DNA of 24,215 nt, taken from the IMG/VR virus record IMGVR_UViG_3300036983_000046, positions 1 to 24,215 of that record; one strand, 5' to 3'. Source of the DNA: a virus. Position numbers and translations under genes: made by a program. How positions within the stretch are numbered: position 1 is the first letter of the stretch; each line of letters opens with the position of its first letter. The notes beneath the pieces are model-generated. The model had not been told where the DNA came from. It searched no databases and saw only the letters and a program-made list of their open reading frames with translations. Positions 10,622-23,444 of the stretch are shown here, piece after piece.

Positions 10622-11203
10622 TCAGGAGAAATAGATCGTCAACTGAATAGCATCACACATCGCGAAGTTATTCATCGTAGCCAAATCGCACACGTCGAAC
10701 TTCACATAGGCCGCAGTCAGAAGATCAGCCAACTCGCCGGCATCCAAACCCCAAGTATCACCAACCCCACCAAAGTCATGCGCAACGCAGTCCCCGCCAA
10801 TATCGTGAGGATCACCAAGGCTGCACTTGGAATCAGACCACGCCGGACCGCCACCGGACCCGACCCTCAACTCGACAACCGACATGGGCATATCGCCGCC
10901 GGCCAGCAGCGACACCCCGATACCCGTGACAGTGGAACCAGCAGGAATAGACGACAGATCAAACGTCATTTGGAGGACAGACCCATCAGCAGGATTAGCA
11001 GACGGGAAGACAGTGGCTTTACTCTCATCAGCTTCCAACTCAGCCGAATCGGGATCACTCCACGGAAACAGGCCGGAAGTCGAACCGCCGCCAAGCGACC
11101 CCCAGACAGACACAGGTGACGTAACACCAGAGGACGACGGCCCCTCGGGATACACGTCAGGAACCGCAGCCGGAATGACCGCCGGAACACTTGCAGGTAT
11201 CAT
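10622..11203 (-). CDS. probable virion surface-appendage protein, 193 aa
   Basis: The ATG overlaps the upstream stop (ATGA). The N-terminus has a Pro-Val/Ile repeat (MIPASVPAVIPAAVP) also found in the preceding gene. Residues about 80-190 follow a pattern seen in phage tail-fibre/adhesin beta-sandwich domains: SSIPAGSTVTGIGVSL, then VVELRVGS, then FGGVGDTWGLDAGEL, then FDVCD and IQLTIYF. Such domains are generally receptor-binding or decoration parts. No trimerisation or hydrolase motif is visible. It is the second-to-last reading frame of the late operon, a usual place for host-contact proteins. Confidence 0.6.
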   Translation of the reverse strand: MIPASVPAVIPAAVPDVYPEGPSSSGVTSPVSVWGSLGGGSTSGLFPWSDPDSAELEADESKATVFPSANPADGSVLQMTFDLSSIPAGSTVTGIGVSLLAGGDMPMSVVELRVGSGGGPAWSDSKCSLGDPHDIGGDCVAHDFGGVGDTWGLDAGELADLLTAAYVKFDVCDLATMNNFAMCDAIQLTIYFS

Positions 11204-11550
11204 GTCAGCTCAACCACTCCAGGAACGAGATCACTGCCAAGCACGCGCACGGACCCCACCCACCCGAGCCCGTTGTCATCGTCATAGAACCCGCAGGTAA
11301 AGGTCCCATAGGGAATCGCACCAGACCACGACCCACCACCAGTCGCGCCACCAGTAACAGAATCCCACTCGGCATAGCCGGCGCCGGCAGAAGACGGCTG
11401 GCGGTCGATACCGCCCACCCTGATGTAGCACGACGCCTGCGTTATCGGCGCCTCCGGATCAGTGGAAAGGAGCCGCAAGGTCTGACGACCCTGCGGCTCA
11501 GAGCAAGGAGCAGAAGAAGGAACTACCGATGGAACAAGCTCAGGTATCAC
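11200..11550 (-). CDS. small virion-associated protein, 116 aa, GTG start
   Basis: I chose GTG 11550 because the resulting N-terminus (VIPELVPSVVPSSAP) matches that of the next gene and because GAGGAAG lies ten bases upstream. An upstream in-frame ATG only extends into the overlapping gene. The GTG overlaps the end of the CxxCxxCC gene by 11 bases. The C-terminal part is Gly/Ser/Asp-rich and beta-like (GGSWSGAIPYGTFTCGFYDD). Probably a short decoration or appendage component sharing an anchor with its neighbour; family unknown. Confidence 0.6.
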   Translation of the reverse strand: MIPELVPSVVPSSAPCSEPQGRQTLRLLSTDPEAPITQASCYIRVGGIDRQPSSAGAGYAEWDSVTGGATGGGSWSGAIPYGTFTCGFYDDDNGLGWVGSVRVLGSDLVPGVVELT

Positions 11551-11785
11551 GGCACACTTCCTCGCAGTAGAAATCCTTACACGCGATCGGTTTCTCCGAC
11601 GGCCCAAAGTCGCAATCGTTGCCGACCAGATGAGGACACACATGCGGAACCCACACCCGCAAATATCCCTCGTCTATATCCCACCGCACACCGCGCGCGC
11701 TCAGAAACTCGCGAACCTCGTCACCGTCAACCAGCGGAAACATCAACTCGCGGCAGCAGTCGCCACACCGCCGGCACTCAGGCAC
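11540..11785 (-). CDS. CxxCxxCC (YkgJ-like) cysteine-cluster protein, 81 aa
   Basis: I chose GTG 11785 because GGAGGT lies about ten bases upstream and GTGCCTGA overlaps the previous stop by eight bases. The mature sequence begins VPECRRCGDCCRELMFP and later has HVCPHLVGNDC and KPIACKDFYC, nine cysteines in all. This is the layout of the YkgJ/UPF0153 zinc- or iron-chelating domain: C-x2-C-G-x-C-C, then C-P-x-L, then x-P-x-x-C-x-x-F-x-C. That family probably binds metal, but its role is unclear. Its placement inside a virion operon is unusual; a capsid- or appendage-associated metal protein or a host modifier are both possible. Confidence 0.72.
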   Translation of the reverse strand: MPECRRCGDCCRELMFPLVDGDEVREFLSARGVRWDIDEGYLRVWVPHVCPHLVGNDCDFGPSEKPIACKDFYCEEVCRDT

Positions 11786-12686
11786 GCCGGACCTCCGCAG
11801 ACACCCAGAACGCATCATACGTCTGATCACCAGGCGACACCGTAATCCTGCCACCAGACGCGCCGAGCGGCCAGCCCTGGACAACCTTGCCCTCCATGCC
11901 GGCCACGTTCACCAGATACGTGCCAGCCGCCCACTTCGCCAGCGTGAACGACGTCACAGCGACGAACTCATCAGACAGCTTTAGAATGACGGCAGTAGTG
12001 GCGCCGACGTTGACCGTCGAACCGCCACGAGTAGCCGACAACTGAAAGCTCAGCGTAGTGGGAGTGGCGATCACGTAATACGTCGTGAACACCGTCAGGC
12101 AGTCGACAGTCGCAGACGTCGAGAGCATCACGGTATCACCAACCGTCAACCCGTGAGGAGTCGCGGTCTCGTACACATCAGTAGCAACGACACCAGCAGC
12201 CGACGGCAGCAGGAGCTCCGGAGACGGAACAAAGTCGAACGCGTTTGTCTCAGAATCAGAATCAACATTGAACGCGGCCCCGCCCGGAGTAGCCGAGAAC
12301 TGGAACACGAAATCAGTGAGTCGCGCAGAGTCAATAACGTAGTAATAGACGTTCGCCGTGACCCCACCGCCATCGCCCTCGAACGCGATACGATCACCAG
12401 GAGCCAAGCAATGCGGCAGCACCGTAGTCACCGTGTTCGCGCTATTCTGGCACGTATTCTCTCTGCGCACATGGCTACGCCGAGGAAACGGCCTGAACTT
12501 ATGCACATGCCCGACCACGACCGCCAAATCCTCCAACGCCGAACCGTTCCGCATCGACAGGAGCAACCTCTCCTCCGAGCCGACGCCCAGCGCCGGCACG
12601 TCGATTGTGCGCATAGCACCATCGGCGCCAGTCGCAGCAGGAAAACCGCAGCCGCCCTGCCACAAAACCTCACCACGCCCCATCAT
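11778..12686 (-). CDS. FCCH-repeat virion protein, 302 aa
   Basis: The start ATG overlaps the upstream stop (ATGA). Residues about 82-142 and 169-228 are two copies of a beta-rich module: H-x-L-x-x-G-D-x-V, then YYVI, then FQ-x-SAT-x-GG. This is the pattern of the E1-FCCH-like domain common in phage structural proteins. A third copy is in the neck protein at 16547. The N-terminal 80 residues and the last 70 (GRITVSPGDQTYDAFWVSAE) are also likely beta. It probably forms a head decoration or a tail/appendage part. No enzymatic motif is seen. Confidence 0.68.
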   Translation of the reverse strand: MMGRGEVLWQGGCGFPAATGADGAMRTIDVPALGVGSEERLLLSMRNGSALEDLAVVVGHVHKFRPFPRRSHVRRENTCQNSANTVTTVLPHCLAPGDRIAFEGDGGGVTANVYYYVIDSARLTDFVFQFSATPGGAAFNVDSDSETNAFDFVPSPELLLPSAAGVVATDVYETATPHGLTVGDTVMLSTSATVDCLTVFTTYYVIATPTTLSFQLSATRGGSTVNVGATTAVILKLSDEFVAVTSFTLAKWAAGTYLVNVAGMEGKVVQGWPLGASGGRITVSPGDQTYDAFWVSAEVRRA

Positions 12687-12904
12687 TGCACACCGCCTTC
12701 CTCGGAGGACTCCTCGACAACGACCTCCGTAATCGTAATTCGCGAATCCTCGCGCATAGCTTGAGTGACCTCCGACTCAGGGACGTCCGTGCCAGTATTA
12801 GACCAGAACCGCCCCGACCGCCAATGACCACCATACTGCCCAGCGAGAGACCGCACCACCACTATCTTCTCAGACTTCGCGACAGACGCCTTCTTACCTG
12901 CCAT
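12683..12904 (-). CDS. Mu-like (FluMu N-terminal/HI1506-type) small virion protein, 73 aa
   Basis: I chose ATG 12904 because the product then begins MAGKKASVAKSEKIVVVRSL and GAGTGGGGG precedes it; longer readings run through the terminator. The core GHWRSGRFW, then TDVPESEVT, then DSRITITEVV fits the FluMu N-terminal pattern (x-R-A/S-G-R-x-W, x-V-x-x-x-E-L/V-T, D-x-x-I-x-V). This domain is found next to the major capsid gene in Mu-like phages. Its exact role (head-completion or decoration) is not settled. It overlaps the FCCH gene by four bases. Confidence 0.65.
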   Translation of the reverse strand: MAGKKASVAKSEKIVVVRSLAGQYGGHWRSGRFWSNTGTDVPESEVTQAMREDSRITITEVVVEESSEEGGVQ

Positions 12905-12924
12905 AATACCCCCACTCACAATCC

Positions 12925-12959
12925 AAAAAGGGCCGGACCGAGTAAACCCAGCCCGGCCC
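12925..12959 (-). terminator. Rho-independent terminator after the major capsid gene
   Basis: On the minus strand GGGCCGG and CCGGCCC (12953-12959 and 12930-12936) flank a 16-base loop and are followed directly by TTTTT. It lies 30 bases after the capsid stop and before the next gene. It would cap the abundant capsid transcript, with read-through needed for the downstream appendage genes. Confidence 0.82.
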
Positions 12960-12989
12960 AAGGCAACGGACGACAACCCAGAGCCGACA

Positions 12990-13934
12990 CTAACCAGCCC
13001 CAGCGTTACCCTGTATGCAGAACCACGCCCCAGCGCCGACGTTATACCTCGCCCTCGTGCCGAAGTAGAACATGTCGCGCATGAAGCCGGACTCCGACTC
13101 CTTCTCCAGCGACCCGAACTCAACCGGAACCCTGCTCTGGAAGATCAGCGGCTTGACAACCCCACTGGTAGAGAGCAGGAACCAGTTCCCGTTCGCGACA
13201 GTCGCAGTACTGTAGAGGTACGGAGAGACAATGCACTCGATGTTCATGTCTTTCAGCACCTTTGCCTGCGCAGCGCCACCCGTAGTTGACGGCCACTCAC
13301 CCGAAAGAAGCTCCTTCCCGGTCTGAGCCAGGCACGGCTCAACCAGAAGCAGATCGGGAGTAATACCCATCGGAACGCCAGCGTCATTTTTGAGCATCAG
13401 CATAGCGTTGATGGCGGTCCAGAGCGTAGCCACCGCCAACGCCGCGCCAGTGGGCTTGTTCGACTGCGAACCGGAATCGCCGCTGACATGGTCAGTGTCG
13501 ATAAAGCCCTGCCCGTCGTAACACAGGTACGGAGAAGCAGCAGACCCGAGGGCGCCGGTCAGGAACTCGCAGCAGAGCTGATCGGGATACCTCGCGGCCT
13601 CGATTGCAAGCTGCCGAACCCGCAACTCCAACATCCCGAGCTTGTTATCCTCCATGTCGGAACGAAGGACCCCGAGAGTATTCTCCCAAGTTTTGTTCTT
13701 GATGTTGAAATTGAAATTGGACAGATCACGCGCCTGCCGCTCACCGAGGAACTCGCGAACCTGCGGCACAGCGCCGAGCCACGGATAATCCTCGGAATCA
13801 GTATCGGACGGCACGATCGTACAGATACGCTTGTGCAGCCCCTTAGCGACCTCGTCACGGTACGCCTTCATGAAGATAGCCTTGAGCCCCTTAGTCAGCG
13901 GGCCGGCAGGCAGATCACCAACACCAAACGCCAT
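12990..13934 (-). CDS. Mu gpT-like major capsid protein, 314 aa
   Basis: The sequence matches the Mu gpT family layout: an N-terminal segment ending in VPSDTDSEDYPWLGAVPQ, then REFLGERQARDLSNFNFNI with KNKTWENTLGV, a hallmark of the family. A long central domain follows and a C-terminal MFYFGTRARYNVG. The length is close to Mu gpT (305 aa). It forms the HK97-fold shell of the head. No N-terminal delta domain is visible, consistent with a separate scaffold encoded nearby. It lies between the decoration protein and a terminator, as expected for the most highly made protein. Confidence 0.9.
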   Translation of the reverse strand: MAFGVGDLPAGPLTKGLKAIFMKAYRDEVAKGLHKRICTIVPSDTDSEDYPWLGAVPQVREFLGERQARDLSNFNFNIKNKTWENTLGVLRSDMEDNKLGMLELRVRQLAIEAARYPDQLCCEFLTGALGSAASPYLCYDGQGFIDTDHVSGDSGSQSNKPTGAALAVATLWTAINAMLMLKNDAGVPMGITPDLLLVEPCLAQTGKELLSGEWPSTTGGAAQAKVLKDMNIECIVSPYLYSTATVANGNWFLLSTSGVVKPLIFQSRVPVEFGSLEKESESGFMRDMFYFGTRARYNVGAGAWFCIQGNAGAG

Positions 13935-13971
13935 AACAACACCCTAACCCTTCTCTGGCATCCAGCCAGGA

Positions 13972-14469
13972 CTAAGAGGCCACCGCAGACCACGCGGAAA
14001 TGCGAACGCGACACTTCGTCGCGGCAGTCTGAGTACCTATAAGCTCAACGATCACGCCAACGATGCACGGATGAGCGGGCGCAGCGCGAAGTATCATCCG
14101 CGGAGTATCAGTCCCGGAACCCTCCGAAGCCCACGCCGTCAACCCGAGATCGGTCTGAATTGTGGCAGACGCACAATCGAACTCGAAAACGCCCTCCTGC
14201 CAACAACGAATTTGGCGGTCACCAGCACTCGCCGCACCAGACCCGGAATCCCCCTCGGTGAGATACCGATTATCCAGAGTCTCAGCAGCCACGCCGACGA
14301 ACTGATCACCAGTCGCGCCAGTGGCATACGCCGAGTAGCAGTATCCATCGGTCTTAAGAACGACGATGTCGCCCTTGAAGATCTTCGTGATACCCATGCG
14401 AATCGCCAGGAGATCACCGGCAGCACGCTTGGCATCATGCGCAATGGTAGAAGCAGTGAACGAACCCAT
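13972..14469 (-). CDS. head decoration/stabilisation protein (DUF2190-like), 165 aa
   Basis: The ATG directly follows the stop of the protease/scaffold gene, with GAGGT nine bases upstream. The protein is Gly/Ala/Thr-rich and beta-like. IFKGDIVVLKTDGYCYSAYA, then GDQFVGVAAETLDN, then CWQEGVFEFDCA is a repeated G-D-x-V / F-V-G-V-A pattern seen in phage head decoration proteins and capsid fibres. Its position just before the major capsid gene matches that role. It probably sits on the outer head surface. Confidence 0.72.
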   Translation of the reverse strand: MGSFTASTIAHDAKRAAGDLLAIRMGITKIFKGDIVVLKTDGYCYSAYATGATGDQFVGVAAETLDNRYLTEGDSGSGAASAGDRQIRCWQEGVFEFDCASATIQTDLGLTAWASEGSGTDTPRMILRAAPAHPCIVGVIVELIGTQTAATKCRVRISAWSAVAS

Positions 14470-14922
14470 TTAGGCAACCTCACCCTTCTCCGAGGCCCGA
14501 ACATCATCCTCGGAAACCCCGAGCTTCGCGAACACCGCGCGCTCCTCGGCAGTGAACTCGTCAGTCTCGACCTTCTCGCCGACCATCGGGACCACGCGCG
14601 GAAGGTTCGTCATGAACTGGACAAACGCCTCCATCACAGGCATGTGCCCGCCATCGGCAAACGTGACCTCGGCGGCCCCGTCGACAAGAATCCCCTCCGC
14701 GAACTTCACGCACGCCGGAGGCAACTTGCCCTCCGCAACCCAGCCGGCCAACTTCACCGACGCCGCATCGCGCGCACTCTTGCGCTTGAGAGCAGCGTTC
14801 TCCTGCGCAAGAGGAGTCAGTTGCGCGTCGAACTGCGTCCGAGCCTCGGCAGCACCCTCGGTGCGGCCCATATCACGAGCAGCATCGATAGCAGCCTGAA
14901 CCTCAGGAGAATACTCAGCCAT
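14470..14922 (-). CDS. nested scaffold protein (Mu gpZ-like), 150 aa, in-frame internal start
   Basis: Within the protease gene, ATG at 14922 (Met143 of the fusion) is preceded by AAAGGGG ten bases upstream. It marks the exact junction between the protease and the scaffold domain, beginning MAEYSPEVQAAIDAARDMG. Mu I/Z and lambda C/Nu3 use this arrangement to make extra scaffold. The protein is helical and charged as expected for a scaffold. The internal start is inferred. Confidence 0.62.
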   Translation of the reverse strand: MAEYSPEVQAAIDAARDMGRTEGAAEARTQFDAQLTPLAQENAALKRKSARDAASVKLAGWVAEGKLPPACVKFAEGILVDGAAEVTFADGGHMPVMEAFVQFMTNLPRVVPMVGEKVETDEFTAEERAVFAKLGVSEDDVRASEKGEVA

Positions 14923-15348
14923 CACACCCACACCCCTTTCAGTGACAAACCGAACACTATTGGTGAACGACACACCATCAGCGATACTACTACCAAACGC
15001 ACGCGCCGTCAAGACGCGCGGGAAATCAACGACGGAAACCTCCGCAATCTCGCCGGCACGGCTCAACCCAAGCGACAGACACTTCGTACCCATGGCGCAC
15101 AGAAAATCCCACACAGCACGAGGCCACGATATCTTGCCATACAGCCGCTTGCCATCACGCCGCACGTCGACAAGCCGGCCAAGGCGGCCATCCCACGGAC
15201 TACCAGCGTGCTGCACACGCACAGGCACCTCACCACGAAGCCGGAACGCAGAGATCATCACGTCGAGATCATTCTCAGTAATCACCACCCCCTTGTCAGG
15301 ATAAGACCCCGCCTCAAACAGCAGAGCATCACGCACGACTTCAGACAT
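14470..15348 (-). CDS. prohead protease-scaffold fusion (Mu gpI-like), 292 aa
   Basis: I chose ATG 15348 because GGAGGTAGGGTC precedes it. Residues 1-125 form the protease: RVQHAGSPWDGRLGRL with candidate catalytic His47, KCLSLGL with Ser92, and GEIAEVSVVDFPRVLTARAF, the usual E-x-S-V-V-x-x-P motif of prohead serine proteases. Residues about 143-292 form a helical scaffold region (MAEYSPEVQAAIDAARDMG, then ENAALKRKSARDAASVK). Mu gpI has this organisation and cleaves the scaffold and itself during head maturation. The catalytic assignment is from motif position only. Confidence 0.85.
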   Translation of the reverse strand: MSEVVRDALLFEAGSYPDKGVVITENDLDVMISAFRLRGEVPVRVQHAGSPWDGRLGRLVDVRRDGKRLYGKISWPRAVWDFLCAMGTKCLSLGLSRAGEIAEVSVVDFPRVLTARAFGSSIADGVSFTNSVRFVTERGVGVMAEYSPEVQAAIDAARDMGRTEGAAEARTQFDAQLTPLAQENAALKRKSARDAASVKLAGWVAEGKLPPACVKFAEGILVDGAAEVTFADGGHMPVMEAFVQFMTNLPRVVPMVGEKVETDEFTAEERAVFAKLGVSEDDVRASEKGEVA

Positions 15349-15352
15349 GACC

Positions 15353-15424
15353 CTACCTCCGAACCACAAGAACCAGGACCACGATCACAACGCCGATGAA
15401 AGTAGCAATCTCCATCCAGTCCAT
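15353..15424 (-). CDS. 23-aa membrane microprotein in the lysis cassette
   Basis: The ATG at 15424 overlaps the stop of the candidate holin gene (TGATG) and follows GTGGGGGG. The 23-residue product is MDWMEIATFIGVVIVVLVLV ending VRR: one almost pure hydrophobic helix with a basic C-terminus. Its TAG stop lies inside the Shine-Dalgarno of the protease gene. Overlap on both sides suggests a coupled real gene, perhaps a second holin-like or pinholin-like peptide or an antiholin. Confidence 0.6.
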   Translation of the reverse strand: MDWMEIATFIGVVIVVLVLVVRR

Positions 15425-15726
15425 CACAACCCCCCACTCTCTTTCGCCGCCTTCGCGGCAGCAAGAACAGCGTTCGCCGCCGCCTCCGCAGAAGCCTTCA
15501 CCGCAGCCGCCGCCTCACGGGTATCACGGCGCCGGCACTCGTCACAATCAACTATATGCTTGTCAAGACTCGCCTTGATTCCAGTCTCAAGCCCCTCAAT
15601 AACCGTATTCTGCACAGACAGTTGCCGCCCTACCACGTCAACCATCAGCTTAAAACCGTAACCCAGCGCGCCAGCCATCCCGACCATGCCGCCAAGAGCG
15701 GCACCCATAGACGTATCAAAGGCCAC
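15424..15726 (-). CDS. candidate holin, 100 aa, GTG start
   Basis: I chose GTG 15726 because GGGGGG lies 8-13 bases upstream and 15 bases separate it from the amidase stop; the longer ORF start lacks a Shine-Dalgarno. Residues about 8-30 (GAALGGMVGMAGALGYGFKL) form a single transmembrane helix. It is followed by a CDEC motif and a long Ala-rich amphipathic helix (about 65-98). One membrane helix plus a cytoplasmic tail directly after the endolysin gene is the argument for a holin or other lysis-control protein. Confidence 0.58.
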   Translation of the reverse strand: MAFDTSMGAALGGMVGMAGALGYGFKLMVDVVGRQLSVQNTVIEGLETGIKASLDKHIVDCDECRRRDTREAAAAVKASAEAAANAVLAAAKAAKESGGL

Positions 15727-15740
15727 GAGAGCACCCCCCA

Positions 15741-16247
15741 CTAAATACCGTCGAGCCACCGTCTCACAATACCAGAAAACAGCACCCAGGGAAACTCTCG
15801 CGGATCACTCTTACGCCCACGAGGCAGAGCAATGGCCCGATGCGACGTTATACAACCATCAGACAAGTCGAGGCCGAATTCCTCCACCAGCCAGGCACAT
15901 AATTTGCCACTCGCCTCAACCTGCGCCCCCGGCCACTCGTCACCATCGAAATGCTCATGCTCAATGCCTATACTGATCTCGTTGACATCAGACCGACCGC
16001 CAAACTTCGACTTACCAGCGTGCCACGTATAGAACGACTTCATATCAGGATTCAACTTGACGATCACACCAGCCTTCGACACCATGAAATCGGCAGACAC
16101 GCCCGACGCCTCATTCGTAAGCCACGCCACCCCGCCCTGCATAGACCCGCCACTCGAATGAAGCACGATCACCCGAACCGGCAACTTCCGAGGGCTCAAG
16201 TTTTTGGTAGCGAACACGGTCCAGCCAGGAAACGGAACCTTATGCAC
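15741..16247 (-). CDS. N-acetylmuramoyl-L-alanine amidase endolysin, 168 aa
   Basis: This is an Amidase_2 (T7-lysozyme/AmpD-like) domain. IVLHSSGG carries the first zinc ligand (His30), SHRAIALPRGRKSDP carries the second and third (His136, Asp148), and FYTWHAGKSKFGG (His76) and IGIEHEH lie between, all at the usual spacing. It has no separate cell-wall-binding domain and no signal peptide, so it depends on a holin for release. I prefer GTG 16247, which overlaps the previous stop by eight bases (GTGCATAA) and has GGGGG upstream; ATG 16295 is the longest alternative. Confidence 0.9.
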   Translation of the reverse strand: MHKVPFPGWTVFATKNLSPRKLPVRVIVLHSSGGSMQGGVAWLTNEASGVSADFMVSKAGVIVKLNPDMKSFYTWHAGKSKFGGRSDVNEISIGIEHEHFDGDEWPGAQVEASGKLCAWLVEEFGLDLSDGCITSHRAIALPRGRKSDPREFPWVLFSGIVRRWLDGI

Positions 16248-16563
16248 TCGCGACCCCCGACAACCCGACAGCCTCATCACGAACGCGATGGACAAACACC
16301 TTCAGGACAGTGTAATTAGACCCGTCACGCGCAAACACGTCATCAACGATTATGCCACTGTCGGCAGCCGCAAAGAACTTGAGCGACGGGCGCGCAAGCC
16401 CAAGGACCTCAGTATCATCCAGCATAGTCCGCATAGTGCCACTGTCGAGAACCTGAACAACGCACACAGCCGAGCCGGCGCCACCACCGGCCAGTTGAGA
16501 GAACGTAAGGGTCTCGCCAATCGCCGTCACGGCAGTCTTATACCTCTCAGCTATCACTGTCAT
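16240..16563 (-). CDS. putative head-tail joining (neck) protein, 107 aa
   Basis: ATG 16563 has GGGGG six bases upstream and overlaps the preceding gene by 17 bases; longer readings are shadows of that gene. The product begins MTVIAERYKTAVTAIGETLT and continues TMLDDTEVLGLARPSLKFFA, then DSGIIVDDVFARDG and YTVLKVFVHR. That is the small beta-barrel pattern (R-x-L-x-F, D-x-V-x-x-D-G-x-x-Y-x-V) typical of phage neck proteins between portal and tail. Its position after the portal supports this. Exact family uncertain. Confidence 0.55.
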   Translation of the reverse strand: MTVIAERYKTAVTAIGETLTFSQLAGGGAGSAVCVVQVLDSGTMRTMLDDTEVLGLARPSLKFFAAADSGIIVDDVFARDGSNYTVLKVFVHRVRDEAVGLSGVASA

Positions 16564-17497
16564 AAGCCCCCGCATCAGCCCCATGCACAGCATACTCGTC
16601 AGCGTCGATATCGAAAACACCGCCGGACGGGTCCGACGATCCGAGAGCCACATCAGCAGCGAGGGACGCATCCTCGATAACCATCCTCGCCAACCGCTGA
16701 GCGTTCAAATCAGCCCGGCCCTGATAATCAGCCGCCGCCGCGGTCGACATGCCCGTATCGGCAGTCACCTTCGCGACCTTAGCCGCCTCCACGAGAGCTT
16801 GAGCCTCCACCAAATCCGCATCAGCCACAGCCTTCGCATTTTCCGCAGCCGCCATCGTAACAGCGTGATCATCCCGAGCCTCAGCCAAAGCCTTCTTCAA
16901 GGCATCTTCGGACTTCACGGCAAGACCACCGGCATAACCGTTGACGGTGAAAGGAGCAAGAACAGCCAGACCGCGCGCGATCAACGGATCCCCACTCTCA
17001 GGAACGCCACCGACCGCGACGCCGCCAGCAGTCACCGCCTCAGCCCAGCCCGGCACACGCCGCAACGCGTTCAGGAACTCGCCGGCAATCACCTCGATTA
17101 TCCCGTACTCGCAAGCCGCCTCGTACGTCGACTTCGCCGTAGAATCCAGAGTAGCTTCCAGCCCCTCCTTGATCTCCGTAATCATCGAATCCAGATCGGC
17201 ATCATACGCAGTACGCACGGAATACGCGTTCGCGCCATCACCAGTAATCGCGAAAGCACCACCGCCACGAGTAGCCGAGAACTGAAACACATCCGGATTA
17301 GTGACACCAGACACCCAGTACGGAGTCGAGGCCGTAACCCCGCCAGTCGTTCCGGTGAACTCGATAACATCACCGACCGCAAGGCCATGCAGAAGCGCCG
17401 TCACGGTATCGCCACTATTCGCCATAGTGCAAGAAACCGTGCCAGCAGGCAACTGAAGCCGCCGCTTGATATCATTCCGCGCAACAGTAATAGCCAT
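16547..17497 (-). CDS. putative head-tail connector with FCCH-like insertion, 316 aa
   Basis: The ATG overlaps the portal stop by one base (TGATG). Residues 1-20 (MAITVARNDIKRRLQLPAGT) and the helical region about 95-160 look like a gp6-type connector. Residues 28-86 form an E1-FCCH-like module (LLHGLAVGDVIEF, then PYWVSG, then VFQFSATRGGG). The second half has long Ala-rich helices (about 200-275) and an acidic C-terminus. At 316 aa it is far longer than a simple connector (about 100-150 aa), so the extra modules may be surface-exposed. Assignment rests mainly on position after the portal. Confidence 0.5.
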   Translation of the reverse strand: MAITVARNDIKRRLQLPAGTVSCTMANSGDTVTALLHGLAVGDVIEFTGTTGGVTASTPYWVSGVTNPDVFQFSATRGGGAFAITGDGANAYSVRTAYDADLDSMITEIKEGLEATLDSTAKSTYEAACEYGIIEVIAGEFLNALRRVPGWAEAVTAGGVAVGGVPESGDPLIARGLAVLAPFTVNGYAGGLAVKSEDALKKALAEARDDHAVTMAAAENAKAVADADLVEAQALVEAAKVAKVTADTGMSTAAAADYQGRADLNAQRLARMVIEDASLAADVALGSSDPSGGVFDIDADEYAVHGADAGAYDSDS

Positions 17498-18780
17498 CAG
17501 GGAGCCACCTTTACACGCACATCGTTGCCATTCCCGACGGGGCCGTCATGTTGCCGCGTCACGGACGGCACAATCCCGCGCGCCGGCGCCGGCCCAGCGC
17601 CCTCCAACCCAAGGAACGTCCGAATCCAAGGATCGTCAGGCTTTAGGACGCCGGCAGTGATCATTTCCGAGACCACCTTCGACAAGACCCCTATCTCGCG
17701 GTCCTCCATCGGCCCAAGCGTGAACAGAGGCACAGCAGCGTCGGCCCCGAAGTTATACCGCACCAGTGGCCGCAAAATCTGTTCGCGAACGACAGTCTCC
17801 TCCAGATCACGCTTCAGCGTCATAAGACACATGTGCAAGACGTCCAGGTGCACCTTCGCCATCGCGAACGACCCGACGCCGTTGTTGTCAGTGTCAGTAA
17901 TCAGCGTCATATTGAGAATCGCCTTCGCAATCTCCTTATCGTGGAACCCCACCGCCAACCTGTAGCCAACGTCGCCCTGCCGGATGGTCTCAAGAAGCTC
18001 CACGGCGCAATCGTCAGGAATCACCACGGCACTCTGCTGTTGAATAGCCGAGAGAACACGCAGAAACTCCTGCTGGGCAGCCAAAGGAGTGCCACGCTTG
18101 TAAGAGCCCTTCGCAGTAGGAGAGCCGTATTTTTCGAGGTAGAGATTCCAGAAGCGAACGAGGAAATCCTTAGACCACCAATTCCGATAAGCAGCCGTCA
18201 GATCAGAGTGGCCATACGGATTGCCGTACTCGGGATGGTAGGTGTACACAACGAACCGCGACCGATCGACAGTCTTGTCAGAGACAAGCTCACGCAAAGC
18301 CACGACGTTTTTGTACGCGTCGACATCGAAGCCCCAATGCGAAGGGTCCATAGGCTTGATGTAGCTCAGATACCACTTACCGGACCACTCGCCGGACTTG
18401 CACACATCCCAGACCAAGCTCTGAATAGAGTAACCCTTCGCAATGGCATCACAGACGTTCCACAGCACCGTGAGCATGGAACCGTCGATAGCCTCCAGCG
18501 CCCACCGGCAGAACTCGACGACGTCACTAGACGTGCCCTCGTCAGACTCCACCTTCCACCCGCGCGACAGCACAGCCGACTTCTTGATAGACAGGCACGC
18601 CTTGACCTGCCCATCCTCCTGCATCCGATCGTAAAGCTCCAAGCCCTTACTCGCAGCCAGCGCATCGGGATTGTCATATCGCCCGAACGCGCCGATCAGA
18701 TCAGGAGCCGGCACATCCCCCTTCGGAGGGACAGACCGATCACGACCAAAGACCGACTTCACCCAAACTGGCACCTTCAC
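17497..18780 (-). CDS. Mu gp29-like portal protein (DUF935), 427 aa
   Basis: I chose GTG 18780 because GGAGGG lies eight bases upstream and the N-terminus then reads VKVPVWVKSVFGRDRSVPPK. This overlaps terL by 41 bases. The family pattern is clear: LYDRMQEDGQVKACLSIKKS, then KPMDPSHWGFD, then YTYHPEYGNPYG, then LVRFWNLYLEKYGSPTAKG with FHDKEIAKAIL and MAKVHLDV, as in Mu gp29 and other DUF935 portals. It forms the dodecameric DNA channel at one capsid vertex and docks the terminase. At 427 aa it is slightly short for the family (about 500). Confidence 0.9.
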   Translation of the reverse strand: MKVPVWVKSVFGRDRSVPPKGDVPAPDLIGAFGRYDNPDALAASKGLELYDRMQEDGQVKACLSIKKSAVLSRGWKVESDEGTSSDVVEFCRWALEAIDGSMLTVLWNVCDAIAKGYSIQSLVWDVCKSGEWSGKWYLSYIKPMDPSHWGFDVDAYKNVVALRELVSDKTVDRSRFVVYTYHPEYGNPYGHSDLTAAYRNWWSKDFLVRFWNLYLEKYGSPTAKGSYKRGTPLAAQQEFLRVLSAIQQQSAVVIPDDCAVELLETIRQGDVGYRLAVGFHDKEIAKAILNMTLITDTDNNGVGSFAMAKVHLDVLHMCLMTLKRDLEETVVREQILRPLVRYNFGADAAVPLFTLGPMEDREIGVLSKVVSEMITAGVLKPDDPWIRTFLGLEGAGPAPARGIVPSVTRQHDGPVGNGNDVRVKVAP

Positions 18781-20209
18781 GCTTAGACCCTCCCACGGCA
18801 GGCATCCCGCCACCAGACCCCCCATACATCATCACCGATTGTATGCCCGCGATGCTCGCCGTGTCAACGAAGTCATCGTGACGCCCGGGAAACTCCAAGA
18901 GCTCATGCTCGACAACAGGTAGATATTCCCCATTCTTCCGGTGAAACACCTTCCCGCACTTGTAACGAGCCAGAATAGTTGTAGCCCGAGTGATCTTGTC
19001 ATTTTCAGCCGGCACAGGATACACCGGAAGCCCGTCGGCCGCAGCCGAAGCCACCAAATTCGTCCCAAAAGTCTTGTTCTCAACATACTGACACCCCGGT
19101 GACCACAACGCGAAAGCGTCACGCAAAGCCCCCAGATGGTCCTCAACCCCCAACTGACGACGGAACACGTCGAGAAGAATCAACTCAGATCCAGGACACA
19201 GCCCCCACGTCGAGATAACGAAGTAATCCGCCCTCTGAGACGACGACCCGTTAACGTCGACAGTCTGAAACACGAACACCTCAGCCTTCTGGTAACGAAC
19301 CTCGCCGTCGAGGCCGCCAAGGACGTAATACGTGTCCTCAACCCAGAAATACCGGAACCACTCGCGACGAAATACCCGACCACCAGACGACTCAGGCTCC
19401 TGCTGATGAAGCGCCTGCCAAAAATTGACAGGACCACTGCTCATAGCCAACTCCTGAGCCTGCAACTCCTCCTCAGAGTAGAACTCAGGCCACAAAGGCG
19501 CCCCCTCAGGCCGACCGAGCGGATCGTCATCACCCAACGACCTCGCCGGAAGGCTCAAAACCTCCCACTCCTCACCCACCCCATCCTTCATCCGAGACAC
19601 CAGCCGGCCAGTCTGATCATCCTTATCCCACCGATTATGAATCAGCACGATAGCACCGCCAGGAAGAAGCCTAGTCCGCACCGCAGACATGTAGTTCGCG
19701 TCGACAGTGTCGCGCACAGCCACCGAACTCGCCTCCTGCCAATTCTTATACGGATCGTCTATCACCGCGTAGTTCGCACGCCGGCCAGTCACAGCAGACA
19801 TTATCCCCACAGCACGCACACCACCACCAACCACAGCCGGACCAGCATCCACCAGCCACCGATCGACAGCCTTCGACTCAGTCGATACCACCCGGCCAGT
19901 GATCTTCGGAGACCAATACGAGTAGAATTGACGTGCAGCAGCCGAGTGTTCCCTGATTAGATCGTCACCGTAACTGGTGAGCAAAATCTCAGCACTCGGG
20001 TTCCGCATCAGACACCAAGCCGGAAAACATCTGCTGCACAAATATGACTTCGCATACCCAGGCGGGATGTTGATGATCAACCGTCGCACATCCAACCGCT
20101 CCACCGCCTCCAACTTCGCGCAGATCAGATCAATGTGTCGACCCTCGACCCACACAAAAGGACTCACCAACTTCGCATACTCCTTCAGACGATGGTAAGC
20201 ACGCGCCAT
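18740..20209 (-). CDS. terL: terminase large subunit (TerL), 489 aa
   Basis: The ATPase has Walker A NIPPGYAKS (about 47-55), Walker B YAVIDDP (147-153) and the coupling motif HNRWDKDDQTG (about 191). The RNase H-like nuclease has its metal-binding acids at FQTVDV (Asp318), YVENK (Glu377) and GRHDDFVDTAS (Asp445/446). So both motor and nuclease look intact. I chose ATG 20209, with AGGTGAAG before it, since the protein then begins like other TerL proteins (MARAYHRLKEYAKLVSPF). It overlaps terS by 80 bases in another frame. Confidence 0.93.
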   Translation of the reverse strand: MARAYHRLKEYAKLVSPFVWVEGRHIDLICAKLEAVERLDVRRLIINIPPGYAKSYLCSRCFPAWCLMRNPSAEILLTSYGDDLIREHSAAARQFYSYWSPKITGRVVSTESKAVDRWLVDAGPAVVGGGVRAVGIMSAVTGRRANYAVIDDPYKNWQEASSVAVRDTVDANYMSAVRTRLLPGGAIVLIHNRWDKDDQTGRLVSRMKDGVGEEWEVLSLPARSLGDDDPLGRPEGAPLWPEFYSEEELQAQELAMSSGPVNFWQALHQQEPESSGGRVFRREWFRYFWVEDTYYVLGGLDGEVRYQKAEVFVFQTVDVNGSSSQRADYFVISTWGLCPGSELILLDVFRRQLGVEDHLGALRDAFALWSPGCQYVENKTFGTNLVASAAADGLPVYPVPAENDKITRATTILARYKCGKVFHRKNGEYLPVVEHELLEFPGRHDDFVDTASIAGIQSVMMYGGSGGGMPAVGGSKREGASLGEVGLWS

Positions 20210-20675
20210 CTTCACCTGCTCCCTCGTCACATTCGCCAACTCGGAAGATCCCGTCAAGGACCTCAAGCTCCGATTCGCTGAGCCGCCCGAGAATCCCACC
20301 CAATACACCCCCCTCCGATACCTCACCAACACCCAACAACAACCGCTGAGGAGCCTCTACACCCCAAATCTTGCGCACGTCAGCAAGCACACCACGCATT
20401 ATCTCCGCATACCTCGGGTCACGAGTCGATTCCCATTCCCGCAACGCGTCCGAATACAATGCCGTTAACTGCCCAGTCTGACGAATCGCATGAATCCGAG
20501 CAATCTCGCCAGCCTCAGACTGCACACGCGCCGTCAAACACTCGATGACACCCTCGACACTCCTCCGAGGAAGCCCCACCAACTCACTTAACTCCTCCTC
20601 GGAAGCCCCGTCAGATATCCCCGCCGCAATCCTGCGCTCCAACTCAGCCCTGCGGAATATGCTCAATGATTCCAT
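20130..20675 (-). CDS. terS: probable terminase small subunit (TerS), 181 aa
   Basis: The gene directly precedes terL. The N-terminus from Met20675 (MESLSIFRRAELERRIAAG) leads to a helix-turn-helix-like region SEEELSELVGLPRRSVEGVI, suitable for binding a pac or cos site. A helical oligomerisation region follows (about 70-130), then the acidic C-terminus that usually contacts TerL. The tail (after about residue 155) is unusually long and Cys/Gly-rich because its frame runs through the terL start. No Shine-Dalgarno stands out, but a small ORF ends two bases upstream. Confidence 0.72.
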   Translation of the reverse strand: MESLSIFRRAELERRIAAGISDGASEEELSELVGLPRRSVEGVIECLTARVQSEAGEIARIHAIRQTGQLTALYSDALREWESTRDPRYAEIMRGVLADVRKIWGVEAPQRLLLGVGEVSEGGVLGGILGRLSESELEVLDGIFRVGECDEGAGEDGACLPSSEGVCEVGESFCVGRGSTH

Positions 20676-20677
20676 AC

Positions 20678-20770
20678 CTACACTATACAACACCACCAGC
20701 AGAAATGCCACGATGCGCGCGGGGGCACTCGCTTATAGGCTTTCTTCTTCTTCAAAACACGCATCATCAT
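20678..20770 (-). CDS. possible 30-aa basic peptide upstream of terS
   Basis: From ATG 20770 the minus strand reads MMMRVLKKKKAYKRVPPRAS then WHFCWWCCIV and stops two bases before the terS ATG. AGAAGA precedes the first ATG. Since terS lacks its own clear Shine-Dalgarno, translational coupling from this ORF would make sense. Composition is odd (basic start, Trp/Cys end), so it is only a candidate. Confidence 0.3.
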   Translation of the reverse strand: MMMRVLKKKKAYKRVPPRASWHFCWWCCIV

Positions 20771-20892
20771 ATCTTCTTTCAACGACGGTTCCTCTATCCT
20801 AACGCCAACTTCAACGACTGTAACCACCGTGCCTATCTGATAGACTGCACCGGAACGACAACGACCGTGACCACCGTGTCAACCGCGGCTTC

Positions 20893-20946
20893 GGCTGGCT
20901 GGCTGCTTCCGCTCGAAGGGAACGATGCTCCAGCAGCCAGCCAGCC
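20893..20946. repeat. inverted repeat, 14-bp arms
   Basis: GGCTGGCTGGCTGC (20893-20906) pairs with GCAGCCAGCCAGCC (20933-20946). The 26-base loop contains CCGCTCGAAGGGAACGATGC, which resembles the loop of the 21204 hairpin. Confidence 0.8.
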
Positions 20947-21011
20947 TCGCCGCTTTGTCACCTCATTCTATGGTGAAACAGTGACGGGAACATTGTGCTT
21001 GTTCAAAATCG

Positions 21012-21053
21012 CCGCCGAACCTCGCCGCGCTTCCGCGCGGCTCGGTTCGGCGG
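21012..21053. repeat. inverted repeat, 10 + 7 bp stem, 4-base loop
   Basis: CCGCCGAACC pairs with GGTTCGGCGG and, after a 2x2 internal mismatch, GCCGCGC pairs with GCGCGGC around the loop TTCC. One of the most stable stems in the region. Confidence 0.82.
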
Positions 21054-21127
21054 TCTATGTATGTTGTGCTTGATTCAACGACGATGCCACTGTAGTAGCC
21101 GGCAGCTTGATTGCTTGGTATCACCGT

Positions 21128-21151
21128 GTTTTTGAATCACCATTCAAAAAC
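21128..21151. repeat. inverted repeat, 10-bp AT-rich stem
   Basis: GTTTTTGAAT and ATTCAAAAAC flank the loop CACC. The stem is A/T-rich, unlike its GC-rich neighbours. On neither strand is it followed by a T-run. Confidence 0.8.
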
Positions 21152-21203
21152 GACGGAGGGAAGGGAACGGAAGGGACTTGTTGTGGTAGCTGCACTGTGC
21201 CTC

Positions 21204-21261
21204 GTGGCCGCGCGCCCTCTGCTTCGCTGAAGGGAACGCTACGCGTCGGGCGCGCGGCCAC
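21204..21261. repeat. inverted repeat, 14-bp all but one GC arms
   Basis: GTGGCCGCGCGCCC (21204-21217) pairs with GGGCGCGCGGCCAC (21248-21261). The 30-base loop carries GCTTCGCTGAAGGGAACGCT, related to the 20893 loop. Confidence 0.82.
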
Positions 21262-21331
21262 TCGGCAGTCAGCTTGTCGTCATCACAGAACCAGAACGGA
21301 AGGGACCTATCGTGACAGCTTCAACTAGACC

Positions 21332-21385
21332 GCGCGCCGTGCCTGCTCTGCTCCGCTTACGCTACGCATCGGGCACCAGGCGCGC
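21332..21385. repeat. inverted repeat, 7 + 5 bp stem with bulge
   Basis: GCGCGCC-GTGCC (21332-21343) pairs with GGCAC-CA-GGCGCGC (21372-21385), with a 2-base bulge. The loop GCTCTGCTCCGCTTACGCTA is again built on the GCTNCGCT...CTACGC theme. Confidence 0.7.
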
Positions 21386-21584
21386 TATGAAACCACCGTG
21401 GAGACCGTCTCAACCGACAACAACGATTCTACGTAGTTAGTGAGTGGCAACTTGGTAGCTGGGTCGGCCCTCCTCGGGCGGCGCTCGCTCGTGTTGCTTC
21501 GCCACGGCGCGCCGCCCTCGTCGGGCCGTAACGGTATCGGGCCGCCTCGGCCATCCTCCTTCGTCGGGTGGCACTCGGCGGCCC

Positions 21585-21609
21585 GCGGGGGCGCCCCCGC
21601 CTTCGGCGG
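21585..21609. repeat. 16-bp perfect palindrome plus adjoining hairpin
   Basis: GCGGGGGCGCCCCCGC (21585-21600) is self-complementary. Overlapping it, CCGCC-TTC-GGCGG (21597-21609) forms an alternative small hairpin, so the two structures are mutually exclusive. Confidence 0.75.
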
Positions 21610-21671
21610 TAGGCAGCCGCGGCGCCCGTTGGTTGCCGCCCGTGCTCGCGTTCTGCGCGCTCTCGCGGCTC

Positions 21672-21702
21672 GGGTAGGGTCGTCGTGCCTCCTTCCCTAC
21701 CC
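21672..21702. repeat. inverted repeat, 8-bp stem
   Basis: GGGTAGGG and CCCTACCC flank a 15-base loop containing TCGTGCCTCC, a variant of the loop found at 21761 and 21903. Confidence 0.68.
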
Positions 21703-21754
21703 CTCGGGCCGTTCGGGCCTCCTCGTGCCTCGTTGTCCCTCTCTCTGCCTGTCA

Positions 21755-21775
21755 TTGCCCTCGTGCCTCGGGCAA
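21755..21775. repeat. hairpin with loop TCGTGCCTC, copy 1
   Basis: TTGCCC pairs with GGGCAA around TCGTGCCTC. The central 17 bases (21757-21773) are repeated exactly at 21899-21915, where the outer stem sequence differs but still pairs. Confidence 0.75.
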
Positions 21776-21895
21776 AGTCGCAGCGGCGCGAAATCAGTGC
21801 GCCTTGCTCCTAACCCTGGCGGGCGCGCGCTCGCTACGCTCGGGATTCGCGCTTGCTCCGCTGCCCCCGAGCCCCTGCCCACCCCCGCCCAGATT

Positions 21896-21918
21896 GCGGC
21901 CCTCGTGCCTCGGGCCGC
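21896..21918. repeat. hairpin with loop TCGTGCCTC, copy 2
   Basis: GCGGCCC pairs with GGGCCGC around the same 9-base loop as at 21755. The outer pairs differ between copies while pairing is kept, which resembles compensatory change. Confidence 0.75.
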
Positions 21919-22155
21919 TGTTGGCGCGGGGACCGCCGGCAAAGCGTTGATGCCAATGTTCCGCGTCTGTTACCTGCATCACGGAGGGAAGAAGAAGAGA
22001 ATATAGATACTCACGGTATTCAGTGCGAAGCTGAGTGCCACGAACCAGGCCACTTGCTCGGCGGAGGGCTGATTCGGAGAATGAAACCCGGGCCAGCTTC
22101 AATTTTCGGACTGATCTGGAAAACTACCCGAAACCACAGTGCCACGCGACCGCTC

Positions 22156-22208
22156 GCCTGCGCGCCGTCAGGCCACCAATGATAATGGCGTGGCGACGGC
22201 GCGCAGGC
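22156..22208. repeat. inverted repeat, 14-bp perfect arms plus inner stem
   Basis: GCCTGCGCGCCGTC (22156-22169) pairs with GACGGCGCGCAGGC (22195-22208), with an inner GCCAC/GTGGC stem (22172-22176/22190-22194). Directly followed by the even longer hairpin at 22219. Confidence 0.83.
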
Positions 22209-22218
22209 TCGCTGCCCC

Positions 22219-22269
22219 GGCTGGCGCGCGCTGATGTCGATGATGATAGCACATCAGCGCGCGCCAGCC
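22219..22269. repeat. inverted repeat, 19-bp perfect arms
   Basis: GGCTGGCGCGCGCTGATGT (22219-22237) pairs without mismatch with 22251-22269, around the 13-base loop CGATGATGATAGC. This is the longest perfect hairpin in the genome. Confidence 0.87.
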
Positions 22270-22360
22270 TCAGTGGAGTACCGCCACATAGTACTAGACC
22301 GGTCCGATGGTGCCGCCCTGTTTTTCAAGGGGGCGGGGATCTTCGCGACGGGTCCGTGGA

Positions 22361-22388
22361 GGGCCGAGGCCGCAGGCGGCCTCGGCCC
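22361..22388. repeat. inverted repeat, 13-bp arms, 2-base spacer
   Basis: GGGCCGAGGCCGC and GCGGCCTCGGCCC are separated by only AG, so cruciform extrusion or a tight RNA hairpin is possible. No T-run follows. A weaker CCGCCC/GGGCGG stem (22313-22336) lies just upstream. Confidence 0.8.
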
Positions 22389-22497
22389 AGTCGATTTGCA
22401 CACCCCATCTTTATACGCGTGAGGAAAGTAGTGTTTTTGCTAGCAGGAGAATCCGCTACCTTAAGCCTCATCACGTAACGGTTTGAAGCACCTGAAC

Positions 22498-22526
22498 TTG
22501 ACATTTACGAGGTTAGGTAGTAGTCT
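22498..22526 (+). promoter_or_regulatory. sigma70-like promoter (TTGACA-17-TAGTCT)
   Basis: A perfect -35 box at 22498-22503 is followed after exactly 17 bp by TAGTCT. It marks the end of the hairpin region and lies 52 bases before the gene at 22578. Confidence 0.68.
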
Positions 22527-22577
22527 GGTGGTGTAGCAAAAAAACTACTTTTACGCATGTAATAGGAGGGCAATGCA

Positions 22578-22862
22578 ATGGTATCAGGTATCTATGCGCG
22601 CCGGAGGGCGGTCTTTGACCGTGCCGCCGGCAGTGACGCGACGACTCAACCCAGCGTCACGGTGTTCCGGTCAGGTCCGTTTTTGGAGGTCCAGGTTAGC
22701 GGTGTTCCCGTTGGCAAGGTGATGAGGACTCAGCCCGTGTATATCGGGGCAACGATGGGCGACGCGTCCGGCCAGTGCCTTCGGCTACCGGCCTGCACGG
22801 TGATTCTAAGTGATGAGGAGCTTCTGGCCGTGCTGTGTGAGCTCAATAGCGATGTAGCCTAG
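22578..22862 (+). CDS. hypothetical protein, 94 aa
   Basis: The ATG has a strong AGGAGGG Shine-Dalgarno and its own promoter (22498). The protein starts MVSGIYARRRAVFDRAAGSD and contains beta-like segments (VTVFRSGPFLEVQVSGVPVG). The C-terminus SDEELLAVLCELNSDVA is a likely helix. No family recognised. Its codons favour G/T in the third position, unlike the C/A preference of the other rightward genes. It stands alone between the hairpin region and the control region. Confidence 0.72.
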   Translation: MVSGIYARRRAVFDRAAGSDATTQPSVTVFRSGPFLEVQVSGVPVGKVMRTQPVYIGATMGDASGQCLRLPACTVILSDEELLAVLCELNSDVA

Positions 22863-23270: not shown

Positions 23271-23343
23271 GAAGGGAGCCGGAGTAAGGTGTGACTGCGT
23301 CACGATTTTGACTGGGTGACTGCGTCACGGGAAGGGAGCCGGA
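23271..23343 (+). repeat. 13-bp direct repeat, 60 bp apart
   Basis: GAAGGGAGCCGGA occurs at 23271-23283 and 23331-23343. The two copies bracket the GTGAC palindromes at 23291-23328. Confidence 0.8.
23291..23328. repeat. two copies of palindrome GTGACTGCGTCAC
   Basis: The 13-bp sequence with GTGAC/GTCAC arms is at 23291-23303 and 23316-23328, starts 25 bp apart. Palindromic arms repeated in direct orientation suit iterons or dimeric repressor sites. Confidence 0.82.
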
Positions 23344-23428: not shown

Positions 23429-23444
23429 TGTTTCACGTGAAACG
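23429..23444. promoter_or_regulatory. chromosomal-type parS-like site
   Basis: TGTTTCACGTGAAACG matches the widely conserved bacterial ParB-binding parS consensus (TGTTTCACGTGAAACA) at 15 of 16 positions; the central 14 bp are a perfect palindrome. It adjoins the GTTCAC array by one base. No parA or parB gene is recognised in the genome. The match is seen directly; ParB binding is inferred. Confidence 0.78.

Follow-up and report, generated by a model that had tools for sequence, protein, structure and literature searches.

Why should a phage genome of about 24 kb keep nearly 2 kb of DNA that holds no gene and is crowded with hairpins? The window, that is, the whole stretch of 24,215 nt analysed here, has identical first and last 127 bases and gave a closed circular map of 24,088 bp; since this overlap has the length of a typical assembly k-mer, it shows the assembly to be circular and does not map physical ends. 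The original prediction, made from the sequence alone, had described about 7% of the genome as lacking genes and lying between divergent transcription units, and had offered as explanations a large structured RNA, a multi-hairpin replication origin, or a packaging or recombination locus. The gene-free stretch (hereafter the slot) was confirmed at 1866 bp, or 7.7% of the genome, with no conserved ORF, and so was its divergent setting, with terS on the minus strand at one side and g22578 on the plus strand at the other:

20130–20711, minus strand: probable small terminase subunit gene terS, assigned by position and conservation beside terL; start at 20675 or 20711
20712–22577, no strand: noncoding hairpin-rich region, delimited by ORF and homology checks and noncoding in relatives
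22578–22862, plus strand: g22578, encoding a 94-aa protein, with homologues in the same place in L010, G001 and G002

A coding explanation was rejected, as the ORFs inside the slot had no homologue in relatives at E ≤ 0.1, whereas the same check returned three homologues for g22578. The product of g22578 was predicted to be β-rich with a C-terminal helix (mean pLDDT of the fold model, 79); it matched no known family, and searching PDB and BFVD with its fold model gave nothing at E ≤ 0.001. The phage encodes two helicases and has a primase-like gene. No par, integrase or repressor gene was recognised among the window ORFs searched, and ARAGORN found no tRNA in the window. The structural block (10622–20332) comprised terminase, portal, protease, major head protein and amidase, with no tail tube or tape measure recognised, and a tail-fibre-like PHROG domain was common to two window proteins (11778–12686 and 16547–17497). 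Downstream of g22578, the intergenic stretch 23271–23343 contained GTGACTGCGTCACG and GAAGGGAGCCGGA, two copies each, interleaved. Direct DNA similarity to the window was not found in phage records. Attempts to name the host were set aside: a terminase search of species genomes returned distant relatives only, and the annotated phages with the closest helicases, at about 33% identity, infect Thermus and Meiothermus, a similarity too low for that purpose.

Hairpins were strongly concentrated in the slot. Seven stems reached a net score of at least 10, whereas 30 dinucleotide shuffles yielded 0.3 such stems on average and never more than 2; at a score of at least 12, six stems were found in the 1.87 kb of the slot and three in the other 22.2 kb, a density about 24 times that of the rest of the genome. 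With loops of up to 60 nt allowed, nine stems had a net score of at least 9:

20893–20946, no strand: hairpin with a 15-bp perfect stem, loop containing CGAAGGGAACGATGCT
21012–21053: hairpin with 17 pairs and a tandem TC/TC mismatch (tandem GA on the minus strand)
21128–21151: hairpin with a 10-bp stem
21198–21267: hairpin with a 14-bp core stem extended beyond a TC/TC mismatch, loop containing GAAGGGAACG
21465–21528: imperfect hairpin with TC/TC mismatches
21538–21585: hairpin with a 9-bp stem
22156–22208: hairpin with a 14-bp perfect stem, loop with AATGATAATGG
22219–22269: hairpin with a 19-bp perfect stem, loop with GATGATGATAGC
22361–22388: hairpin with a 13-bp perfect stem

At least twelve inverted repeats, described as perfect, had been claimed for the region. 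The named stems were indeed present, those of 14 bp (21204–21261 and 22156–22208), 19 bp (22219–22269) and 13 bp (22361–22388) as described, and that of 17 bp (21012–21053) with its 17 pairs interrupted by one 2-nt mismatch. A repeat search of the slot listed 13 inverted pairs, some of them long-range and likely due to chance, so that convincing local hairpins numbered about nine rather than twelve; some stems were perfect, but several carried a tandem TC/TC mismatch.

Relatives were found through portal, terminase and terS searches and formed a small clade (L005/L011, L008, L009/L010 and L012), with G001 and G002 more distant. G001, a contig of L106, was self-closing with an overlap of about 141 bp, and G002, a contig of L107, was near-complete and broken within the slot. 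Identity of TerS to that of the window was 50–60% in L005, L008 and L010 and about 40% in G001 and G002. The interval between terS and the g22578 homologue was again noncoding and hairpin-rich in L010, G001 and G002, and so was the terS side of the slot, the only part visible in the partial contig L005. Thus the slot was kept although the relatives' TerS is only 38–54% identical to that of the window, and its length across the clade was 1.9–3.5 kb in compact genomes; such recurrence over deep divergence indicates that it is either under selection or repeatedly formed by one process. Enrichment of hairpins was clearest in the window and G002, whereas G001 had three very long stems and no enrichment of weaker ones; near-perfect stems reached 23–27 bp in G001 and G002. 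A transposase-like ORF, IS3-family-like by eye, lies inside the G001 slot (L106, 3324–4253), with similar CCCACCC-type repeats on both sides.

The stems could not be aligned among genomes, whereas certain loops, a number of directional motifs and an inverted repeat at the flank persisted; an alignment of the region from the window, L010 and L005 (mean column identity, 51%) was discarded as not meaningful outside the g22578 flank. The CGAAGGGAACGATGCT loop of the hairpin at 20893–20946 had a near match in an L010 hairpin loop carried on a different stem. Within single genomes, too, pairs of hairpins shared like loops on different stems: GGAGAGCG in G001, ACTGCTTNCNNCGCAG in G002, and, in the window, both GAAGGGAAC and ATGATRAT. 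The motifs and the inverted repeat of the window were located as follows:

20753–20761: CAAAACACG motif close to where terS starts, found at this position in every relative
20915–21305, plus strand: GAAGGGA directional motif, five copies (20915, 21160, 21170, 21229 and 21299)
21864–21890: C-run cluster, G-quadruplex-capable on the minus strand
22425–22551: long-range inverted repeat, arms 22425–22442 and 22534–22551, 17 of 18 positions complementary

The CAAAACAC motif was conserved near the terS start, with AAAACAC in G002. GAAGGGA did not occur on the opposite strand anywhere in the window genome, and orientation counts were 12:0 for GAAGGGA, 17:0 over all five regions for CCCACCC (runs of which, in relatives, shared the orientation of the C-run cluster) and 10:1 for CTAGAC; shared 10-mers were in the same orientation 98 times and in the opposite one 57 times. 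A reading of GAAGGGA as KOPS, which it resembles (GGGNAGGG or GAGAAGGG), was not adopted and is a lead only, as the motif lacks the genome-wide distribution of KOPS and occurs only rarely in G001 and G002. The inverted repeat beside g22578 had counterparts in G001 and G002, whose arms are unrelated in sequence, and in L010, whose arms are partly similar, pairing being kept throughout; it is possibly an operator or a divergent promoter pair. A promoter scan of the region gave four sites against 1.1 in shuffles, none of them at this repeat. Iteron-like AATAACG repeats were present in G001 and G002 only, and the window had none.

Rfam covariance models run on the whole window gave no family at gathering thresholds. 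At E ≤ 10 the region and L010 yielded sub-threshold matches only, mostly to microRNA precursors, which any long hairpin will match, and to small RNAs, with neither GOLLD nor ROOL among them. Twenty-five hairpins from six stretches contained 434 Watson-Crick pairs and 49 mismatches, and potential G-U pairs among the latter numbered 4 on the plus strand and 2 on the minus strand, a low count that may partly reflect the way stems were chosen, since every non-Watson-Crick pair was penalised. C-T mismatches accounted for 24 of the 49 on the plus strand, and many were tandem TC/TC, corresponding on the minus strand to tandem GA in a CGAG context, which forms stable pairs in RNA as well as DNA. When RNA helices evolve under selection, G-U pairs are the normal intermediates; the scarcity of these in the stems thus favours selection or repair at the DNA level, and is no proof of it. 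Template switching in DNA synthesis can keep stems perfect in RNA genes too (PMC8794818), which weakens the argument. Folding gain was similar on both strands, with z-scores slightly better on the minus strand in all three regions tested; choosing the strand by folding energy or by the G-U content of predicted folds was given up because the results were inconsistent. Taken together, pairing and loop orientation suit hairpins of single-stranded DNA in which one strand, probably the minus strand, is functional.

Nucleotide skew was computed on the three complete or near-complete genomes (window, G001 and G002). A skew minimum is expected near a replication origin, and the minima lay at or near the terS end of the slot in all three. 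The detrended GC-skew minimum fell in the slot at 20884 in the window, 14888 in G001 (oriented map; slot 14553–18019) and 23702 in G002 (slot 23698 to the end plus 1–1006), and the keto-skew minimum at 20711 in the window, the slot border itself, 14878 in G001 and 23951 in G002. Because minima of both kinds fall in the slot in all three genomes, the option of a multi-hairpin origin is favoured. However, the slot is also the point at which the gene blocks diverge, and gene divergence alone would place a minimum there if skew follows transcription, as may hold in G001; the skew is therefore support for an origin and not proof. Third-position GC and AT skews, computed on mechanically chosen ORFs, had the same sign for genes of both strands in the window and G002, and more weakly in G001, which points to replication rather than to gene direction or transcription. 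Over the whole map (1–24088) the plus strand showed negative GC skew and positive AT skew whatever the gene orientation, a pattern unusually uniform for a phage.

Resemblances to host chromosome-segregation signals were found in or beside the slot. One of them lies in the window beyond g22578, outside the interval of the original prediction:

23429–23444, no strand: parS-like palindrome TGTTTCACGTGAAACG, 15 of 16 positions identical to chromosomal parS

The chromosomal 16-bp palindrome TGTTTCACGTGAAACA, thus present in the window with one mismatch, was exact in G002 (C1:22790–22805), just downstream of the g22578 homologue, where it overlaps the start codon of a small ORF (MFHVKH...). No further match with at most one mismatch was found in 1.43 Mb scanned. 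Exact parS was present in at least 120 IMG/VR contig stretches and is thus common in viral contigs, so that finding it is in itself unremarkable; what stands out is that two distant genomes have it in the same interval. As no par family was recognised among the window ORFs searched, and hence no phage-encoded ParA or ParB, host ParB would be needed at this site. Elsewhere, the viral contigs L147, L174, L183 and L193 each had three to five exact parS copies close together, which may mark phage partition loci or else pieces of chromosome misassigned as viral.

In the slots of L010 and G001, two dif-like sites (XerC/XerD; spacers, 8 and 6 bp) lie in inverted orientation and fold into one hairpin; the layout of two 11-bp half-sites flanking a 6–8-bp centre was seen in both. 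No dif-like site of comparable score was found in the window, and the inverted pair was absent from G002 too; the proposal of a recombination locus therefore holds for these two relatives but not for the window. An exact-pattern scan of IMG/VR returned the pair in only four contigs, namely L010, G001, the unrelated 40-kb phage L128 and one probable chance match within an ORF; in L128 (4205–4300) the pair sits between genes within a hairpin, which parallels L010 and G001. Only two genomes had the parS site and only two the dif-like pair, and they were not the same two.

We tentatively read the slot, at chances that fall somewhat short of even, as a region that serves a small phage as replication origin and for genome maintenance, its hairpins acting as single-stranded DNA and aided by borrowed host segregation signals. 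From sequence comparison we infer origin activity, the single-stranded role, a plasmid lifestyle and the use of host ParB or Xer alike. Replication would start in or beside the slot and run mainly leftward via the terminase side around the ring. The hairpins would come into play on single-stranded DNA, most likely by offering the phage's own primase and helicases strand-specific structures for loading or priming, and members of the clade may have added host signals in or beside the slot, parS in the window and G002 and the dif-like pair in G001 and L010. The phage would probably be able to persist as a circular plasmid, a state that is conjecture because the ORFs searched included none recognisable as parA/parB, integrase or repressor. 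The plasmid RSF1010 has two short single-strand initiation hairpins, ssiA and ssiB; those of the slot may, by analogy, be strand-specific hairpins read by the phage primase, but they are about nine in number and longer. This reading is weakened by the restriction of the iteron-like repeats to G001 and G002 and of each segregation signal to two genomes, and we know of no origin with functional arrays of about ten single-stranded DNA hairpins.

The same hairpins could be the helices, with conserved loops, of a new class of large structured noncoding RNA spanning the region, with a role like that of GOLLD, ROOL or the abundant ~800-nt ICP1 transcript. Strand-specific motifs, loops conserved on differing stems, tandem GA mismatches tolerated on the minus strand and the slightly better minus-strand z-scores in all three regions tested would agree with this, and abundant ORF-less transcripts are known in phages (PMC7567579). 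GOLLD and ROOL are, like the slot, large structured noncoding loci in phages (PMC12286853), but the slot lacks their covariance-model match, their tRNA neighbours (a frequent though not obligatory trait) and an RNA pairing signature. We consider such an RNA rather unlikely, as Rfam was empty at gathering thresholds and unconvincing at E ≤ 10, almost no G-U was found across 434 paired positions, folding gain was similar on both strands, there was no tRNA neighbourhood or terminator excess, and the relatives are too divergent for a covariation test. Among the options first proposed, an origin is thus the best supported and recombination applies to some relatives, whereas the large RNA is without support.

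A further reading, which we judge unlikely, is that most of the hairpins are side effects of template switching, arising and being made perfect where a replication fork stalls or is often restarted, and are tolerated in a spacer that owes its length to something else. Template switching has been documented both to generate hairpins and to make them perfect (PMC8794818), and the perfect stems of unrelated sequence in each genome, the paralogous hairpins with replaced stems and the scarce G-U pairs all fit it; but it would invert the loops along with the stems, whereas loop motifs kept a single orientation (GAAGGGA, 12:0), and the slot was retained at 1.9–3.5 kb in compact genomes over deep divergence. 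A pac or cos site for TerS, with hairpins and phased motifs assisting the initiation of packaging, would explain why the region lies directly upstream of terS in every relative and why the CAAAACAC motif is conserved near the terS start. Such a site requires far less than 1.9 kb, however, the hairpins extend far from terS, and the k-mer-like 127-bp terminal overlap maps no physical end; we hold a packaging locus to be very unlikely.

For the reading as an origin and maintenance region, the nearest precedents are the RNA-based origins of mycobacteriophage prophages (PMC7157519) and the attP hairpins of Xer-exploiting elements (PMC5357621). In the extrachromosomal prophages of RedRock, Alma and LadyBird a noncoding region likewise drives plasmid-type replication beside partition functions, but it is about 600 bp long, produces a noncoding RNA and is associated with parA, parB and repeat-type parS of the phage itself (PMC7157519), whereas no par genes were recognised in the window and its parS-like site follows the chromosomal 16-bp palindrome. 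The two inverted dif-like sites of L010 and G001, folding into a hairpin with no integrase recognised nearby, recall the folded attP of the CTXphi type and other Xer-exploiting elements (PMC5357621). Those elements are mostly filamentous single-stranded DNA phages, and the CTXphi sites lie about 90 nt apart and match on the XerC side only, whereas in L010 and G001 both arms match across the 8- and 6-bp spacers; the window has no such sites.

In very small phages, long stretches of noncoding DNA are usually passed over. The fuller proposal, that a clade of minimal phages uses a long array of single-stranded DNA hairpins as origin and host parS or folded dif copies for chromosome-like inheritance without recognised partition or integration genes, is quite unlikely to hold. 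If the slot is an origin, it would represent a hairpin-array way of starting phage replication, and if the parS- and dif-like sites work, tailed-type phages would be directly borrowing the chromosome-segregation signals of their hosts.
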